A stretch of 64,000 nt of DNA, taken from contig NZ_CP022991.1 in NCBI RefSeq assembly GCF_002278075.1, positions 496,001 to 560,000 on the forward strand, written 5' to 3'. Of the stretch, positions 57,298 through 64,000 are shown piece by piece. Source of the stretch: Paraburkholderia aromaticivorans. Lineage in GTDB: Bacteria > Pseudomonadota > Gammaproteobacteria > Burkholderiales > Burkholderiaceae. Positions within the stretch are counted from its first letter, which is position 1; each line of letters begins with the position of its first letter. The notes beneath the pieces are model-generated. The model saw nothing but the letters and a program-made list of their open reading frames with translations. It was not told the DNA's origin and made no database searches. Both the position numbers and the translations under genes were made by a program.

Positions 57298-57327
57298 TTG
57301 ACAAACAAAAATATGGCGTTTTAGACT
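57298..57327 (+). promoter_or_regulatory. Candidate sigma-70 promoter of the amide operon leader
   Basis: TTGACA (57298-57303) is a perfect -35 hexamer, followed after 18 bp by TAGACT (57322-57327), a 4/6 match to TATAAT. Transcription would start near 57334, producing a leader of about 90 nt before the terminator at 57381-57424. Confidence 0.6.
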
Positions 57328-57333
57328 CAAGTC

Positions 57334-57424
57334 ACTCCTTCGAGGCCCGACAAAGATGTCCGCCCGAGGACCCGGCACAGAAGCCCCCTGACGAACTCGC
57401 CGTTCGTCAGGGGGCTTTTTTTTT
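57334..57424 (+). ncRNA. ANTAR-type antitermination leader (two hexaloop hairpins plus terminator)
   Basis: Hairpin P1 has GAC (57349-57351), loop AAAGAT (57352-57357) and GTC (57358-57360), extendable outward across two mismatches to GG/CC at 57344-57345 and 57364-57365. Hairpin P2 has GGC (57374-57376), loop ACAGAA (57377-57382) and GCC (57383-57385). Both loops are six bases with A at position 1 and G at position 4, the rule known for RNAs bound by ANTAR proteins. The 3' side of P2 overlaps the left arm of the terminator, so P2 and the terminator exclude each other. An AmiC homologue is encoded at the end of the operon. The stems are short and were drawn by eye. Confidence 0.65.
57381..57424 (+). 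terminator. Intrinsic terminator in the leader of the amide operon
   Basis: AAGCCCCCTGACGAAC (57381-57396) and GTTCGTCAGGGGGCTT (57402-57417) form a perfect 16-bp stem with a TCGCC loop, ending in nine T (57416-57424). It lies upstream of the first gene of its operon (start 57482) and downstream of a promoter, so it must be bypassed for expression. No gene upstream on the plus strand needs it. Confidence 0.92.
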
Positions 57425-57481
57425 GCACGTTTTTTCCCTGTTCTAGCGCTCACGTCTGGCGCCCACCTCTGGAGAACCCGC

Positions 57482-58717
57482 ATGTTGCTGAAGCCGTCGG
57501 GCTGGATGCGTCTCGCCCTTACCGCAGGACTCGCACTGACTTCGCTCGCATCGAGCGCCGCCGATCCCGTGAAGATCGGCTTGCTCGAAGACGCCTCGGG
57601 GAATTTCGCACTGGCCACGATTCCCAAGATTCACGCCACGGAACTCGCCGTCGACGAGATCAACGCGAAGGGCGGCATTCTCGGCCGCCCGGTGAAGCTG
57701 ATCGCCTACGACACACAGTCGGACAACACCAAGTTTCAGGAATTGGCCCGGCGGCTCGTGCAGACCGACAAGCCGGATGTGATTTTCGGCGCGTTCTCCA
57801 GCGCATCGCGCGAAGCGATCCGCCCGATCATGGACCGCGCGCATCAACTCTACTGGTACGACAATCAGTATGAGGGCGGCGTCTGCGACTCGAACACCTT
57901 CGTTACCGGCGCGGTGCCCGAGCAGCAATTTTCGACGCTCATTCCGTGGATGATGCAGAAGTACGGCAAGAAGGTGTACACCATCGCGGCCGATTACAAC
58001 TTCGGGCAGATTTCGGCGGAGTGGGTACGCAACATCGTCAAGGAGAACGGCGGCACGATGGTCGGCGAGGAATTCATTCCGCTGTCGGTATCGCAGTTCG
58101 GCCAGACCATTCAGAACATCCAGAAGGCGAAGCCCGACTTCGTCGTCACGCTGCTGGTCGGCGCGAATCAGTCTTCGTACTACGAGCAGCAGGCGTCGGC
58201 GCATCTGAATCTGCCGATGGCGAGTTCGGTGAACGTCGGTCAGGCCTATGAGCACAAGCGCTTCAAACCGCCTGCACTCAAGGACATGTACGTGACGGCG
58301 AACTACGTCGAAGAGGTCGATTCACCCGCCAGCAACGACTTCAAGAAGCGCTTCCACGCGAAGTTTCCGAATGAGCCGTACATCAACCAGGAAGCCGCGA
58401 ACGCCTACGACGCCCTCTATCTTTACAAGGCCGCGGTCGAAAAAGCGAAGTCGACGAATCAGGACGCGGTGCGCAAAGCGCTCGAAAGCGGCGACATCTG
58501 CACGACCGGCGCGCAAGGCAAGGTCTGCATCGATCCAAAGAGCCATCACGCGAGTCACACGATTTATCTGGTGCACGTGAAGGAGGATCACTCGGTTGAG
58601 ATTCCGAAGGTCTGGGACGACGTGCAGCCCTACTGGCTCGGCAAGGTCGGCTGCGATCTGCCGAACCGGCCGGATCATCGTCAGTACACGCCGTCGAACC
58701 TGCCCAAGAAGTCCTGA
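57482..58717 (+). CDS. Urea/short-chain amide ABC transporter substrate-binding protein
   Basis: 411 aa with a TCTGGAGAAC site. A signal peptide of about 27 residues (LALTAGLALTSLASSAA) precedes a type I periplasmic-binding fold of the Peripla_BP_5 (UrtA/FmdD) kind: VKIGLLEDASGNFA, AVDEINAKGGILGRPVKLIA, VIFGAFSSASREAIRPIM. It captures urea or small amides in the periplasm. The visible half of the AmiC protein at 63225 is homologous to it. First gene of a six-plus-gene operon controlled by the leader at 57334. Confidence 0.9.
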   Translation: MLLKPSGWMRLALTAGLALTSLASSAADPVKIGLLEDASGNFALATIPKIHATELAVDEINAKGGILGRPVKLIAYDTQSDNTKFQELARRLVQTDKPDVIFGAFSSASREAIRPIMDRAHQLYWYDNQYEGGVCDSNTFVTGAVPEQQFSTLIPWMMQKYGKKVYTIAADYNFGQISAEWVRNIVKENGGTMVGEEFIPLSVSQFGQTIQNIQKAKPDFVVTLLVGANQSSYYEQQASAHLNLPMASSVNVGQAYEHKRFKPPALKDMYVTANYVEEVDSPASNDFKKRFHAKFPNEPYINQEAANAYDALYLYKAAVEKAKSTNQDAVRKALESGDICTTGAQGKVCIDPKSHHASHTIYLVHVKEDHSVEIPKVWDDVQPYWLGKVGCDLPNRPDHRQYTPSNLPKKS

Positions 58718-58783
58718 TCCGAAGCCGGCGCGCGGGCAATGCAGCATGCTCACGCGCGCCGGCCTCCTGAACGTGGAGCACGC

Positions 58784-59653
58784 ATGGCCACTCTATCGGT
58801 TCTCTATTCGCTCATCTATCAGTTCGGCGACAACTTCGCGTATCTGGTGCTCGCGGCGCTTGGTCTCGCGGTGATTTTCGGCATGATGGGTGTCATCAAC
58901 CTCGCGCATGGCGAGTTCATCATGTGCGGCGCCTACGTGACCATCATCACGGCGAAGCACGGCGCGCCGCTGCCGCTCGCGATGCTGTTCGGCGCGCTCG
59001 CGGCGGCGCTCGCGGGCGTCATCATCGAACGGCTGGTGATTCGCCATCTCTATGACCGTCTGTTCGACTCCGTCGTGGCAACATGGGCAATCAGCCTGAT
59101 CGTGCAACAGACCATGCTGCTCGTCGCCGGTCCGTCGATCGAAGGGATAGGCACACCGTTCGGCTCGTTTTCGCTCGGCGAGTATTCGTTCTCGACGTAT
59201 CGCGCCGTGCTGCCCGGTATCGCGCTTGCAATCCTGTTCGGCCTCTACCTGCTGTTCTTCAAAACCAATTACGGCGTCTGCGCGCGCGCCACGATCCAGA
59301 ACGCGAATATCGCGCAATGTCTCGGCCTGCGCACCGACCGGCTCTATACGCTGACCTTCGCGCTGGGCGCGGGGCTCGCGGGCCTCACCGGCGCGCTCTA
59401 TGCGCCGACCATGACGGCGGTGCCGACAATGGGCAGCAACTTCATCGTGCAGGCCTTCGTCTCGGTAGTGGTCGGTGGTGCCAACGTGATCGCCGGCACG
59501 ACACCGGCAGCCGGTGTGCTCGCGATCATCCAGACCGCGCTGACGGCGTCCTATGGGCAGCTGTTCGGACAGATCGGTCTGCTGGTGACCGTCATCGTCG
59601 TGATCCGGTTGATGCCGCAAGGTCTCGGCAATCTCTTCACCCGCTTGCGCTAG
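58784..59653 (+). CDS. Branched-chain-type ABC permease 1 (UrtB/LivH-like)
   Basis: 289 aa from the ATG at 58784 (GTGGAG upstream; frame starts 58739). Eight or so membrane segments, with VIFGMMGVINLAHGEFIMCG, the LivH signature, near the N-terminus and ALGAGLAGLTGALYAP later. It forms the inner-membrane channel with the next permease. Confidence 0.92.
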   Translation: MATLSVLYSLIYQFGDNFAYLVLAALGLAVIFGMMGVINLAHGEFIMCGAYVTIITAKHGAPLPLAMLFGALAAALAGVIIERLVIRHLYDRLFDSVVATWAISLIVQQTMLLVAGPSIEGIGTPFGSFSLGEYSFSTYRAVLPGIALAILFGLYLLFFKTNYGVCARATIQNANIAQCLGLRTDRLYTLTFALGAGLAGLTGALYAPTMTAVPTMGSNFIVQAFVSVVVGGANVIAGTTPAAGVLAIIQTALTASYGQLFGQIGLLVTVIVVIRLMPQGLGNLFTRLR

Positions 59654-59662
59654 GAGGCAGAC

Positions 59663-60733
59663 GTGAAGCAAATGAAAGGGCCTTCGACCCAAGCCGCAAC
59701 GCGCGCGTTGCATACTGTGCCGTGGCTCGTGGCGCTATGTCTGCCGCTCGTGGTCGATGCGAACACCAGCGGCAATCTCGCCTACTGTCTGCTGTGGGCG
59801 TTCAGCGCGCTCGGGCTTGCCGCGATGTGGGGCTACGGCGGCATCCTGTCGTTCGGGCAGACCGCGTTCTTCGGGCTTTCGGGCTACACCTACGGTATCT
59901 TCACGCTCAACTATGGCGACACGTGGTTCGAGTCGTGGCTCGGGCTCGGCGCGGGCATCGTGGTGAGCATCGTCGTCGCGGCGCTGATCGGCTACATGAT
60001 CTTCTATGGACGCATCAAGGGCGTGTTCATCGGCATCGTCACATTGTCGGTGACGCTCGTGCTCGAAACCTTCATGTCGCAGACAGCAGGGCCGCAGTGG
60101 GCGATCGGCGAGGCGCGGCTGAACGGCTACAACGGTATGGGCGGCATGCCGCAATTGACCATTCCGTGGCCGGGCGGGCCGCTCACGCTGGAGAACGTGA
60201 GCTTCTACTACCTCGTGCTGCTTCTGTTGATCGCGGTCTACGCGATCATGCGCAGGCTGCTCGACGGCACCTTCGGTTTGACCCTCATCGCTATCCGGGA
60301 GAATCCGCAGCGGGCGGAGATGCTAGGCGTCGACATCCGCCGTCATCAACTGATGGTGTTCGTGCTCGGCTGCACGCTGGGCGGATTGTCGGGTGCGTTG
60401 TACACGATCTGGGGCTCCTACATCACGCCGTCGACAATGGGCCTCACCGCTGCCGCGATGCCGGTGATCTGGGTCGCAACGTCGGGAAGAAAGAGCATCG
60501 GTGGAACGATCATCGGCACCGCTTTTCTCGTGTGGCTCTCGCAGAATCTCGCGGTGTACGGCAGCCAGTACGCGCTGATCCTGCTCGGTGCGATTCTGCT
60601 GATTGTCGTGCTGGCCGCGCCCGAAGGTTTGCTGCCGTTCGTCGCGCGGAATCTGCGGCGTCTGTCGAGCCGCACGGGCGGTGGTTCACGTCACGCCGGC
60701 GCATGTCTGAAGCGAGAGGAGGGCAAGTCATGA
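59663..60733 (+). CDS. Branched-chain-type ABC permease 2 (UrtC/LivM-like)
   Basis: 356 aa from a GTG start after TAGGAGGCAG, 9 bp downstream of permease 1; an ATG at 59672 is possible. LivM hallmarks are WGYGGILSFGQTAFFGLSGY and LIAIRENPQRAEMLGVDIRR, with GCTLGGLSGALYTIW near the end. The stop overlaps the next ATPase gene by 4 bp. Confidence 0.92.
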   Translation: MKQMKGPSTQAATRALHTVPWLVALCLPLVVDANTSGNLAYCLLWAFSALGLAAMWGYGGILSFGQTAFFGLSGYTYGIFTLNYGDTWFESWLGLGAGIVVSIVVAALIGYMIFYGRIKGVFIGIVTLSVTLVLETFMSQTAGPQWAIGEARLNGYNGMGGMPQLTIPWPGGPLTLENVSFYYLVLLLLIAVYAIMRRLLDGTFGLTLIAIRENPQRAEMLGVDIRRHQLMVFVLGCTLGGLSGALYTIWGSYITPSTMGLTAAAMPVIWVATSGRKSIGGTIIGTAFLVWLSQNLAVYGSQYALILLGAILLIVVLAAPEGLLPFVARNLRRLSSRTGGGSRHAGACLKREEGKS

Positions 60734-61440
60734 CCACGCTGCTCGAAACGCGCGGGCTCAAGAAGCATTTTGGCGGCGCGCATGTGATCAACGGAATCGA
60801 CTTCAGTATCGAGGCGAACGAGATTCGCTGCGTGATCGGGCCGAACGGCGCGGGCAAAAGCACGTTCTTCAAGCTCATCACGGGCGAGCATCGTCCTTCC
60901 GAAGGCAGCGTGCTGTTTCTCGGCAAGGACATGAGCCATGTGCTTCCGCACGAGCGCATCCGGATGGGCATGAGTATCAAGTTCCAGATCCCCGGCGTGT
61001 TTCCCGATCTGAGCGTGCGTCAGCATTTGCAACTGTCGCTGCATCGCGCGAAGGACGACCGGCCCGAAAGTCTCGACGAACTGCTGCGGCGCTTCATGCT
61101 GGAGAATGAAGGGCATGTGCTCGCACGCAACCTGTCGCACGGCAAGAAGCAATGGCTCGAAATCGCGATGGCCGTGTCGTTGCGCCCGAAGCTGCTGTTT
61201 CTCGATGAACCTGTGGCCGGCATGTCCGTGGAGGAGACGCATGCGACCGGCGAACTCATCAAGCGACTGTCGGCAGATGGACTCACGATGATGGTGGTCG
61301 AGCACGACATGACCTTTGTCAAGCAGATCGCCTCGCGCGTCACGGTGCTGCACGGCGGCAGTCTGCTCGCCGACGGGCCGCTCGACGAGATCCTCGCGCG
61401 CGACGACGTCGCGGAAGTCTATCTGGGGAAGAAGAAATGA
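60730..61440 (+). CDS. ABC transporter ATP-binding protein 1 (UrtD/LivG-like)
   Basis: 236 aa. Walker A GPNGAGKST, Q loop in SIKFQIPGVFPDLSV, signature LSHGKKQWLEIAMAV (H for the usual G, as in UrtD proteins), Walker B LLFLDEPVAGMS and switch His in VVEHDM. ATGA overlaps on both sides show translational coupling to the permease and to ATPase 2. Confidence 0.93.
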   Translation: MTTLLETRGLKKHFGGAHVINGIDFSIEANEIRCVIGPNGAGKSTFFKLITGEHRPSEGSVLFLGKDMSHVLPHERIRMGMSIKFQIPGVFPDLSVRQHLQLSLHRAKDDRPESLDELLRRFMLENEGHVLARNLSHGKKQWLEIAMAVSLRPKLLFLDEPVAGMSVEETHATGELIKRLSADGLTMMVVEHDMTFVKQIASRVTVLHGGSLLADGPLDEILARDDVAEVYLGKKK

Positions 61441-62144
61441 GCGCGTTGCTGGAGGTGTCGAACGTTGAAGCGGGATATGGCGGCGGCCGCGTGCTCAACG
61501 GCGTGTCGTTCGGCGTCAGGCGCGGCGAGGTGCTGGCCCTGATCGGGCGCAACGGGGTCGGCAAGACGACGCTGATGCGCGCGCTGATTGGTCTTGTCAG
61601 GCTCGATGCCGGCGAAATCAGACTCGAAGGCAATGCGATCGGCCAGGACAAGCCGTACGCTCGGGCGCAGAGCGGCATGGGCTATGTGCCGCAGGGGCGC
61701 GAGATCTTCGGCGCGCTGACCGTTGCCGAGAATCTGCAGGTCGGCGCGCAGGCGAATCGGGCGCGCGCCGCGGACATGAAGGAGAAAGTCGTCGGCTATT
61801 TTCCGATTCTGAAGAAACGCTATACGCAGAAAGCGGGAACCATGAGCGGGGGAGAACAGCAGCAATTGGCGATTGCCCGCGCGCTGATCAGCGCGCCGAA
61901 GGTGCTGTTGCTCGACGAGCCTTCCGAAGGCATTCAACCGTCTATCGTCGATCTGATCGGCGACACGCTGCAGCATATCGCGCAGGACACGGGTATCGGC
62001 GTGGTGCTGGTCGAGCAGGATATGGGCATGGTCGAGCGTATCGCGAATCGCTGCTGTGTGATGGACAAGGGCCGTATCGTCGAGACATTGAGCCCCGAGC
62101 AACTCGGCGACGAACAACTGATTCGCCAGTATCTGGCACTGTGA
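61437..62144 (+). CDS. ABC transporter ATP-binding protein 2 (UrtE/LivF-like)
   Basis: 235 aa. Walker A GRNGVGKTT, MGYVPQGREIFGALTVAENL (LivF/UrtE-type Q-loop region), signature MSGGEQQQLAIARAL, Walker B VLLLDEPSEGIQPSIV and VLVEQDM where a Gln takes the switch-His neighbourhood typical for this group. It completes the five-component importer. Confidence 0.93.
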   Translation: MSALLEVSNVEAGYGGGRVLNGVSFGVRRGEVLALIGRNGVGKTTLMRALIGLVRLDAGEIRLEGNAIGQDKPYARAQSGMGYVPQGREIFGALTVAENLQVGAQANRARAADMKEKVVGYFPILKKRYTQKAGTMSGGEQQQLAIARALISAPKVLLLDEPSEGIQPSIVDLIGDTLQHIAQDTGIGVVLVEQDMGMVERIANRCCVMDKGRIVETLSPEQLGDEQLIRQYLAL

Positions 62145-62157
62145 CGGAGAGCGGAAC

Positions 62158-63144
62158 ATGAAATGGCTTGAAGAATCGATCATGATGAAGCGCGGTGTCG
62201 GCGCCGATCGCGAGCCGGTGGAGCACCATCTCACCGAGGAGATGCAGAAGACCTATCACTACACGATCGGCCCTTATTCGCAGCCTGTTCTGCACGTCAA
62301 GCCGGGGGATCGCGTGGTGGTGGAAACGCGCGACGCCTTCGAAGGCAAGATCAGGGAGGAGACCGACAAACCGTCGCAGGTGCTGCAGGTGCCTTTTCTC
62401 AATCCGCAGAATGGGCCGATCATGATCGAAGGCGCCGAGAAGGGCGACGTGGTTGCGGTATATATCGAGAAGATGGCGCCGCGCGGCGACGATCCGCACG
62501 GCTTCTGCTGCATGATTCCGAACTTCGGCGGGCTGACCGGCACGGACTACACTGCGCTGCTCAACGAGCCGTTGCCTGAAATCGTACGCAAGATAAAGAT
62601 CGACGAAGAGAACGTGTACTGGAGCAAACGCAATACGCTGCCGTACAAACCGCATATCGGCACGCTGAGCCTTTCTCCCGAAATCGATTCGATCAATTCG
62701 CTCACGCCCGACAATCACGGTGGCAATATGGACGTCCCTGACATGGGGCCGGGCAGCATCACGTATTTGCCGGTACGCTCGCCGGGCGGGCGGCTTTTCA
62801 TCGGCGATGCGCACGCCTGTCAGGGCGACGGCGAAGTGTGCGGCACGGCCGTCGAGTATCAGAGCACGACGACCGTGCGCGTGGATCTTATCAAGAAGTG
62901 GCAGATCGACTGGCCGCGTCTGGAGAACGAAGACGCGCTGATGAGCATCGGCAGCGCGCGGCCGCTGGAGGACGCGACGCGCATCGCCTATCGCGAACTC
63001 GTGTTGTGGATGGCTGCCGAGTATGGCTTTGACAAGTGGGATGCGTACATGATGCTGAGTCAGGTCGGCAAGGTACGTCTCGGTAATTTTGTCGACCCGA
63101 AATATACGGTGGGCGCAATGGTCGCCAAGCACTACCTGAAGTAA
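62158..63144 (+). CDS. Formamidase/acetamidase (FmdA/AmdA family)
   Basis: 328 aa. The FmdA_AmdA family is shown by KPGDRVVVETRDAFEGKI, NPQNGPIMIEGAEKGDVVAV, FCCMIPNFGGLTGT, PDNHGGNMDVPDMGPGSITY and RLFIGDAHACQGDGEVCGTA. It hydrolyses formamide or acetamide to ammonia and the acid in the cytoplasm. It lies 13 bp after the second ATPase, so import and hydrolysis are coupled in one operon. It occupies the place that the unrelated nitrilase-fold AmiE holds in the Pseudomonas amide operon. Confidence 0.93.
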   Translation: MKWLEESIMMKRGVGADREPVEHHLTEEMQKTYHYTIGPYSQPVLHVKPGDRVVVETRDAFEGKIREETDKPSQVLQVPFLNPQNGPIMIEGAEKGDVVAVYIEKMAPRGDDPHGFCCMIPNFGGLTGTDYTALLNEPLPEIVRKIKIDEENVYWSKRNTLPYKPHIGTLSLSPEIDSINSLTPDNHGGNMDVPDMGPGSITYLPVRSPGGRLFIGDAHACQGDGEVCGTAVEYQSTTTVRVDLIKKWQIDWPRLENEDALMSIGSARPLEDATRIAYRELVLWMAAEYGFDKWDAYMMLSQVGKVRLGNFVDPKYTVGAMVAKHYLK

Positions 63145-63180: not shown

Positions 63181-63202
63181 GCGCGGAGCCTATGCTCCGC
63201 GC
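63181..63202. repeat. Intercistronic hairpin between amidase and amiC-like gene
   Basis: GCGCGGAGC and GCTCCGCGC form a perfect 9-bp stem with a CTAT loop and no T-run. It lies in the 80-bp gap before the AmiC-like start and could protect the upstream mRNA or lower read-through so that the regulator is made in smaller amount. Confidence 0.6.
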
Positions 63203-63224
63203 GCATCCGAGAGCACGTGAAGAA

Positions 63225-64000
63225 ATGGCATTATCCGATCCCATCCGTGTGGGCCTGCTTAGCTCGACGACCGGTTCGACCGCGTTGCTCGAACAGTCTC
63301 AATGGCGCGGCGCATGCCTCGCCGTCGAGGAGATCAACGCGCGCGGCGGCATAGGCGGACGCGAACTCGTCGCGCTTCATTACGATCCCGGCTCCGATCC
63401 GGCCGCGTTTCGCGAGCTGGCGGAGCGGCTTATCGTGAGGGACGGCGTCAATACCATTTTCGGCGGCTATACGTCGACCAGCCGCAAGGCGATGCTGCCC
63501 GTCGTCGAGAAGCACAACCGGCTGCTGATCTACGCGCAGATGTACGAAGGCTTCGAGTATTCGGACAACATCATCTATAGCGGCGCGTCGCCTAACCAGA
63601 ACGGTGTGCAACTCGCCGACTTCATGACGGAGACGTTCGGCGCGCGCGTGTACTTTGTCGGTTCGAGCTATGTCTATCCGTACGAATGCAACCGGACGAT
63701 GCAGGAGCTACTGCTTCAGCATCCCGAAGGCGCGATCCTGGGTGAGCGCTATTTGTCGCTCGATGCCACGCGCGACCAGTTCGACCAGGTGGTCGCGGAT
63801 ATCGGGCGCAAGTCGCCGGACTGGATCTTCTGCACAGTGATCGGAGAGACGGTGCCCTATCTCTACGATGCCTACGCGCGCGCGGACTTCGATCCGGCCA
63901 GCATGCCGATCGGCAGCCTCAACACGTCCGAGACAGAGATTCACGCGATGGAACGCGGCGTCGCGACAGGGCATTTTACGGCCGCGCCTTATTTTCAGAG
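63225..64000 (+). CDS. amiC: AmiC-like cytoplasmic amide sensor (partial, runs off right edge)
   Basis: 258 codons are visible from the ATG at 63225. The product starts MALSDPIRVGLLSSTTGSTA with no signal peptide, although it has the same periplasmic-binding fold as UrtA-type proteins (AVEEINARGGIGGRELVALH, IFGGYTSTSRKAMLPV, LIYAQMYEGFEYSDN). This combination, a cytoplasmic binding protein beside an amidase, is that of AmiC, which holds the ANTAR antiterminator AmiR inactive until an amide binds. The expected amiR would follow outside the window. The distinction from a transporter component rests on the missing signal peptide and gene order. Confidence 0.85.
   Translation, partial: MALSDPIRVGLLSSTTGSTALLEQSQWRGACLAVEEINARGGIGGRELVALHYDPGSDPAAFRELAERLIVRDGVNTIFGGYTSTSRKAMLPVVEKHNRLLIYAQMYEGFEYSDNIIYSGASPNQNGVQLADFMTETFGARVYFVGSSYVYPYECNRTMQELLLQHPEGAILGERYLSLDATRDQFDQVVADIGRKSPDWIFCTVIGETVPYLYDAYARADFDPASMPIGSLNTSETEIHAMERGVATGHFTAAPYFQ

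Follow-up and report, generated by a model that had tools for sequence, protein, structure and literature searches.

Dual-hexaloop RNAs recognized by ANTAR regulators, with A at position 1 and G at position 4 of the loop (A1/G4), were described in 2012 with the amiE leader of Pseudomonas aeruginosa among them. The available text of that survey reports a seed that fixed A1/G4, with matches before urea transporters and in Burkholderia (PMC3369931). In P. aeruginosa, AmiC and AmiR are encoded together, and the amiE leader carries two hexaloop hairpins (P1 and P2), the second overlapping an intrinsic terminator (PMC3369931). The eutP RNA of Enterococcus faecalis, the target of EutV, likewise has two hexaloop hairpins with A1/G4 twice and a P2-terminator overlap. 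In the accessible parts of the report on the EutV-RNA complex, G4 is contacted by Arg142, Lys149, Glu160, and Tyr164, and replacing Glu160 with alanine weakens binding 60-fold (PMC8934654). That structure and a NasR selection (PMC7496416), as far as their available text goes, support A1/G4, and the available part of an actinobacterial survey gives >50% conservation of loop bases 1 and 4 (PMC8164766). The same parts of the structure report, which give the G4 contact, leave open how ANTAR proteins distinguish targets and what roles P1 and P2 play (PMC8934654). The urtABCDE, fmdA, fmdB, amiE cluster of Pseudomonas veronii Yu15 places a urea-type ABC transporter beside an FmdA-type amidase (PMC13209695, from its available text).

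We analyzed a window of 64,000 nucleotides from Paraburkholderia aromaticivorans, near the right end of which a leader precedes genes for amide import and hydrolysis (Table 1). We assign this leader to the AmiR/ANTAR antitermination family as a new member, located on an operon for a Urt-like transporter and an FmdA-type amidase. We estimate a probability of roughly 0.9 that it attenuates transcription under the control of the AmiR encoded in the same gene cluster.

Table 1. Leader elements and genes of the operon; positions are those of the window unless a contig or locus is named.
Feature	Position	Strand	Basis or remark
Sigma-70-type promoter	57298-57327	+	-35 TTGACA 57298-57303, -10 TAGACT 57322-57327; consensus scan
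P1 hairpin	57337-57369	+	Hexaloop AAAGAT 57352-57357, A1 and G4; sequence, fold, covariation
P2 hairpin, GGC-ACAGAA-GCC	57374-57385	+	Hexaloop ACAGAA 57377-57382; sequence
Intrinsic terminator	57381-57424	+	16 perfect pairs and U9; bases in common with P2
Urea/amide-type ABC substrate-binding protein	57482-58717	+	Peripla_BP_6; TIGR03669 above cut-off
UrtB-like permease	58787-59653	+	PF02653; best NCBIfam models UrtB, under cut-off
UrtC-like permease	59663-60733	+	PF02653; UrtC models under cut-off
UrtD-like ATPase	60730-61440	+	PF00005; TIGR03411 under cut-off
UrtE-like ATPase	61437-62144	+	PF00005; TIGR03410 281.2 bits, cut-off 285.8
FmdA/AmdA-family acetamidase/formamidase	62158-63144	+	PF03069; 619 bits to 5UBU, putative acetamidase/formamidase
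AmiC-like amide sensor	63192-64000 (window end cuts gene; whole, L004:6193-7380)	+	Homology
AmiR	G000:C3:560384-561028 / L004:7382-8032 (just beyond window end)		AmiR_N and ANTAR; directly behind AmiC gene

The promoter matches 10 of 12 consensus letters with an 18-nt spacer, and shuffles of a 401-base stretch held a mean of 0.2 sites of equal quality per shuffle. Its -35 TTGACA is invariant in 17 of 17 aligned leaders, and the -10 block is variable. The P1 and P2 loops (AAAGAU and ACAGAA in RNA) both have A1/G4, and their starts lie 25 nt apart. The terminator arms, AAGCCCCCTGACGAAC (57381-57396) and GTTCGTCAGGGGGCTT (57402-57417), form a perfect 16-bp stem, followed by a run of nine T (57416-57424). 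A sequence-only reading of this DNA had placed here a consensus -35, a pair of hexaloop hairpins, and a perfect 16-bp terminator followed by nine T, and sequence and fold put all of these at the positions it gave. Its further claim, that the second hairpin shares bases with the left arm of the terminator, also holds: the 3' stem of P2 (GCC, 57383-57385) lies inside that arm.

The 102-nt leader RNA folds as P1 plus terminator at -50.3 kcal/mol, and 0 of 200 shuffles were as stable (z -6.1). A 67-nt piece lacking the right arm of the terminator folds as P1 plus P2 with ordinary stability (z -1.4; 19 of 200 shuffles as good), so the support for these two hairpins is comparative. A covariance-model scan had been proposed along with the fold; an Rfam search of the window gave no family up to the gathering score. 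Rfam matches at E 10 were low-scoring and offered nothing usable, and we read them as chance or generic terminators. The features that mark ANTAR-target RNAs are present in the window leader: two hexaloop hairpins, A1/G4 twice, terminator overlap, and compensatory changes.

TIGR03669 is the only one of the Urt models matched by the transporter genes whose cut-off is reached. The substrate-binding protein (57482-58717) passes this urea-binding, archaea-named model and is far under the cut-off of the bacterial UrtA model. The start codon of the UrtB-like permease is provisional, its open reading frame beginning at 58739. The FmdA/AmdA-family protein scores 80 bits against the NCBIfam formamidase model, far under its cut-off of 500. 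Because the FmdA and AmiC genes adjoin those of the transporter, the transported substrate is presumably a short amide. As had been proposed, the operon includes an AmiC-like sensor, which aligns over residues 20-389 with P. aeruginosa AmiC (1PEA/1QNL, 288 bits), and the ANTAR protein gene that the sequence-only reading had sought to the right of amiC is there. The AmiR frame begins 1 nt past the AmiC stop, and its product matches PF21332 (94.2 bits) and PF03861 (47.0 bits), both above cut-off. The nearest named AmiR, from Paraburkholderia lycopersici, is 97% identical. A short-chain dehydrogenase gene and then an Amidase-family protein gene follow AmiR.

The joint coding of sensor and ANTAR protein and the layout of the leader thus resemble P. 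aeruginosa, but the target here is a Urt-like ABC transporter with an FmdA-family amidase rather than amiE, and the window-side AmiR scores just 74.5 bits to P. aeruginosa AmiR (1QO0_D). This AmiR has the Tyr and Glu equivalent to G4 contacts in the EutV complex (by alignment, and from the available text of PMC8934654); it differs from EutV-type proteins in having an AmiR_N pseudo-receiver and an AmiC partner in place of a phosphorylated receiver. Unlike the eutP RNA, many AmiR-linked leaders have no G4 in P2 or in both loops. The P. veronii Yu15 locus, in the available text, is reported without amiC/amiR, which that paper assigns to other amiE operons (PMC13209695). The window leader may be among the matches of the 2012 survey (PMC3369931). 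The transporter-plus-FmdA operon joins the likely AmiR targets, and the AmiC/AmiR module is found on several kinds of amide operon.

Across the bacterial family, a search at E 0.001 gave AmiR-like matches in 203 of 299 genomes, many spanning the ANTAR part only; 18 matches, own genome counted, were at least 62% identical. All 16 close relatives with the operon start covered have the leader (a 17th, L016, is without that end). In these 17 close leaders, the window's among them, A1/G4 is present in P1 in 17 and in P2 in 16, the P2 loop of L026 being GUAGAA. We also collected 16 operons with the same transporter-FmdA order (from Yersinia, Brenneria, Klebsiella, Prodigiosinella, another Enterobacterales bin, Pollutimonas, two Oxalobacteraceae, and a single Caballeronia); at locus L098 the regulator genes precede the leader. 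In these 16, P1 has A1/G4 every time and P2 never, with P2 loops AAUAGA, AUCAGA, AAAAGA, AAAAAA, and GUAGAA. Over all 33 same-order operons, the earlier expectation that both loops would keep A1/G4 is borne out for P1 (33/33) but fails for P2 (16/33). We read the two-loop A1/G4 rule as too strict, rather than ANTAR control as lost, because the leaders keep P1, the approximately 25-nt spacing of loop starts, the P2 stem, the overlapping terminator (partly judged by eye in the enterobacterial same-order leaders), and a nearby AmiR gene. Under scans demanding A1/G4 in both loops, many leaders had escaped notice and the same-order operons of the Yersinia type seemed empty; a letter-free scan fixed both.

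That scan looks for a short G-C-rich-stem hexaloop overlapping a terminator, with a hexaloop hairpin about 25 nt upstream and loop letters free. Class-wide sampling found AmiRs in 4 of 369 genomes, own included, and so few that sampling moved to AmiR-rich orders and families. The first 106 loci held 72 leaders in 69 loci, with 0 and 1 in two random resamples; a more general scan of 38 further loci found 32 leaders in 29, again with 0 and 1 in resamples. The version used for counting was positive in 98 of 143 loci, which yielded 104 leaders; once two more sets had been added, the total rose to 141 leaders, spread over 133 of 193 AmiR loci. Two random resamples of all 193 loci (3.3 Mb), which preserve nearest-neighbor frequencies only, gave 0 and 0 leaders. 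Loop starts are 24 to 28 nt apart in 135 of the 141 leaders, within a scan window of 22 to 28. The fixed scan found no leader in the other 60 loci, some of them truncated at a contig or locus end and others showing leaders by eye or under looser settings; in some Glu169-AmiR loci, such as L041-L048 and L200-L202, no convincing leader was found. The counts omit 17 loci, L012-L028, because L052 onward are close kin or identical records, and they still hold same-record or near-identical loci, 13 leader strings being common to two to four loci. One P1 register each was shifted by hand in L131, L157, L178, and L199. In ten loci (L032-L039, and L126 and L127 from Burkholderia), the leader precedes the classical AmiR target, an aliphatic amidase (amiE) gene; the L032 amidase scores 708 bits against a cut-off of 427.

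Covariation was assessed in 37 of 54 listed leaders. The structure has 43 doubly changed paired cells, 41 of them in P1; this total compares with an average of 10.2 in shuffles and at most 15 in slid controls. Compensatory changes on both sides occur in five of six P1 pairs and in one of three P2 pairs. The P2 pairs vary little, and the scan itself dictated them in part; P2 is paired in 100% of cells, a stem that the finding scan required. The covariation to be sought in both hairpins is present in P1 and scarce in P2.

Two points preceded the comparison of loops and AmiR residues: loop base 4 had been seen to be G or A, and the four G4-contacting residues of EutV were to be checked. Residue 169 of AmiR was the most informative on P1 base 4 among 64 ANTAR columns. 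It corresponds to EutV Glu160, by hand alignment guided by the alignment and by Tyr and Met landmarks, and AmiR K158 aligns with EutV Lys149. Across all 185 AmiR columns in 74 representatives below 90% identity, residue 169 again ranked first (0.70 bits), with K158 next (0.47 bits). In the 141-leader set, P1 base 4 with E169 (108 leaders) is G in 104, T in 3, and A in 1; with D169 (12 leaders) it is A in 9 and G in 3; and all 21 leaders with K, R, A, I, or N at 169 have A4 in both loops. With duplicates removed (113 leaders), P1 base 4 is G in 79, T in 3, and A in 1 of the 83 leaders with E169, A in 8 and G in 3 of the 11 with D169, and A in all 19 others; by distinct leader string (123), it is G in 88, T in 3, and A in 1 of 92 with E169, A in 8 and G in 3 of 11 with D169, and A in all 20 others. 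Asp169 falls in both classes, so the rule holds cleanly for Glu and the non-acidic residues alone. Residue 158 is Gln in 15 of 19 non-acidic-169 rows and in 0 of 83 E rows, duplicates removed. On general chemical grounds, guanine would be recognized by Glu, and adenine could be recognized by Gln. P2 base 4 was rejected as the code: E169 leaders show G (77), A (29), and T (2) there, and the code therefore does not reside in P2 by itself.

Counter-examples kept in the counts are L203 (described below), L040 and L051 (two leaders), with D169 and P1 G4, and L159, L161, and L163, with E169, T4 in P1, and G4 in P2; a doubtful second leader of L159 (P1 GTTGAG) was entered as G4. Two loci were left out: L162 (E169, P1 AATAAT, P2 AGAGCG, found under looser settings only) and L174 (D169, P2 AAAAGA, with P1 hard to place). 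Among 35 later loci, 23 have leaders, and P1 G4 accompanies E169 in 21 of 22, A4/A4 accompanying N169 in the remaining one. The sole exception, L203, is a remote paralog (75 bits) with E169, P1 CGGATA, and P2 AAATAA, and is perhaps a false leader. As L178 and L199 repeat leaders of L157, 20 of these leaders are distinct and new (E169 with P1 G4, 18/19; N169 with A4/A4, 1/1). A second later set added 15 loci, 12 of them with leaders, L219 repeating L098. Its 10 distinct new leaders all follow the rule (E169 with P1 G4, 1/1; R, A, or K169 with A4/A4, 9/9), but they are not independent cases, since they come from families known for non-Glu AmiRs; the kin groups are L209-L214 with L150/L151, L207/L208 with L169, and L216/L217 with L135 and L006.

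These alignments suggest that AmiR residue 169 and loop base 4 change together across relatives. We think it reasonably probable that they constitute a one-base, one-residue ANTAR-RNA code, in which E169 needs G4 in a loop, mostly P1, and K, R, A, I, or N169, most with Q158, uses A4 twice. Such a code would separate two AmiC/AmiR circuits per genome, with P1 specifying the partner in most lineages and P2 serving mainly for terminator overlap. The link could instead reflect shared ancestry only, a few clades differing in both features without contact, and we regard this as the less probable account, though one with appreciable weight. On a tree of the 74 representatives, the no-G4 label changes five times, three of which are required by branches with good support and one of which is probably the doubtful L203; the non-Glu label changes six times. 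A Fisher value computed for the association takes no account of relatedness and does not serve as a test. The columns K158, R41, and M162 likewise differ between the classes, and the independent supported pairs number three, too few for a sign test. In those pairs, however, residue 169 goes with the loop in 2.2 cases on average, against it in 0.0, and shows no difference in 0.8. Ancestry alone also sits poorly with the rank of residue 169 above every other AmiR column, with the new loci, which obeyed the rule with one exception, and with its alignment to EutV Glu160, the G4 contact whose loss weakens binding in the available report (PMC8934654).

In the literature searched, which held few subscription papers and no bioRxiv preprints and was in part available as partial text, we found neither an A4 class nor a residue-base code described. 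If the code is true, much of the A4 class would escape search models that fix A1/G4 in both loops, such as that of the 2012 survey, and a genome such as this one could run two AmiC/AmiR circuits without cross-talk. Natural leaders with A4, or with a P2 lacking G4, are sorted by a G4-touching residue, which makes target discrimination and the roles of P1 and P2 testable.

The P. aromaticivorans genome holds three ANTAR genes: the window-side AmiR, a second AmiR (contig C6), and a third ANTAR protein (C2). A different ANTAR protein might therefore read the window leader, as part of a wider nitrogen regulon, particularly as the second AmiR adjoins two leaders of the same layout; we consider this improbable. 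Each AmiR adjoins its own leader or leaders. A 37-leader model applied to the genome, with 150 of 5199 candidates scored at first look, ranks the window leader first (40.9 bits; it is a training row), a leader beside the second AmiR next (33.9 bits), and the divergent third leader sixth of 22. Among the best 10 of the 22 matches, only these three AmiR-adjoining sites have the terminator-coupled layout; the other seven are without such a leader. The second AmiC/AmiR pair (L006, G000:C6) has divergent leaders at 1545 (+) and 1354 (-), one before an operon for an aliphatic amidase (711.6 bits), the other before a divergent permease/amidase operon. Their loops, AACATT/AACAGA and AACAGC/AACAGA, have A4 in both loops of each. 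The second AmiR is thus K169/Q158 with A4/A4 leaders and the window-side AmiR E169/K158 with a G4/G4 leader, which would predict little cross-talk; the 169/base-4 pairing could keep the two sister circuits separate in one cell. Beside the third ANTAR gene (L001, G000:C2:906021-909182) is a substrate-binding-protein-like gene. By appearance the two may be a NasT-NasS-like pair, a family search giving no confirmation, and the surrounding 15 kb (L005) showed no leader of the dual-hexaloop-terminator type.

Least credible is the reading of the leader as a simple attenuator or terminator whose hexaloops arose by chance, with no ANTAR control. Both hairpins are short, and the 67-nt fold is ordinary, but loops, spacing, and terminator overlap recur beside AmiR in Burkholderiaceae, Enterobacterales, and other groups; almost no leaders come from random resamples, and P1 covaries.

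The proposal that this leader is an AmiR target is supported by the AmiR gene behind AmiC, by leader conservation, and by P1 covariation. For attenuation by the window-side AmiR, we infer the following order of events. By analogy with P. aeruginosa, as described in the available text (PMC3369931), AmiC would bind short amides and hold AmiR. Without amide, AmiC would retain AmiR, the terminator would form after about 90 nt, and few transcripts would extend into the genes for transporter and amidase. Once a short amide is present, AmiC would release AmiR, which would bind the P1 loop and hold P2; P2 would then withhold its GCC from the left arm of the terminator, and polymerase would continue. 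Read-through would yield the transporter, the FmdA amidase, AmiC, and AmiR, and probably also the dehydrogenase and the further amidase, on what would be a single ten-gene transcript.

Several departures from the usual loops and stems were seen in the alignments. The second pair below the P1 loop (columns 13/22 of alignment A2) is non-standard in 23 of 37 leaders, where C.C and C.U predominate on visual inspection; in the window leader it is A-U, and the closing C-G of P1 never varies in this alignment. Loci L152-L157 and L180-L197 (L194 without a leader) form a separate AmiR paralog clade with Glu169 and T, M, I, or V at residue 158. Their P2 loops are UANGNA, with U1 facing A6 and G4 kept. 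A distant lineage, L159-L163, has loop starts 28 to 29 nt apart and P2 loops AGAGNN or GAAGAA, in which G4 is kept. Its P1 loops are mostly without G4 (AATTGC, AACTGC, AGCTTC, and AATAAT), ACTGGC having it, so that the loop asymmetry is the reverse of the usual one, with P1 rather than P2 lacking G4.
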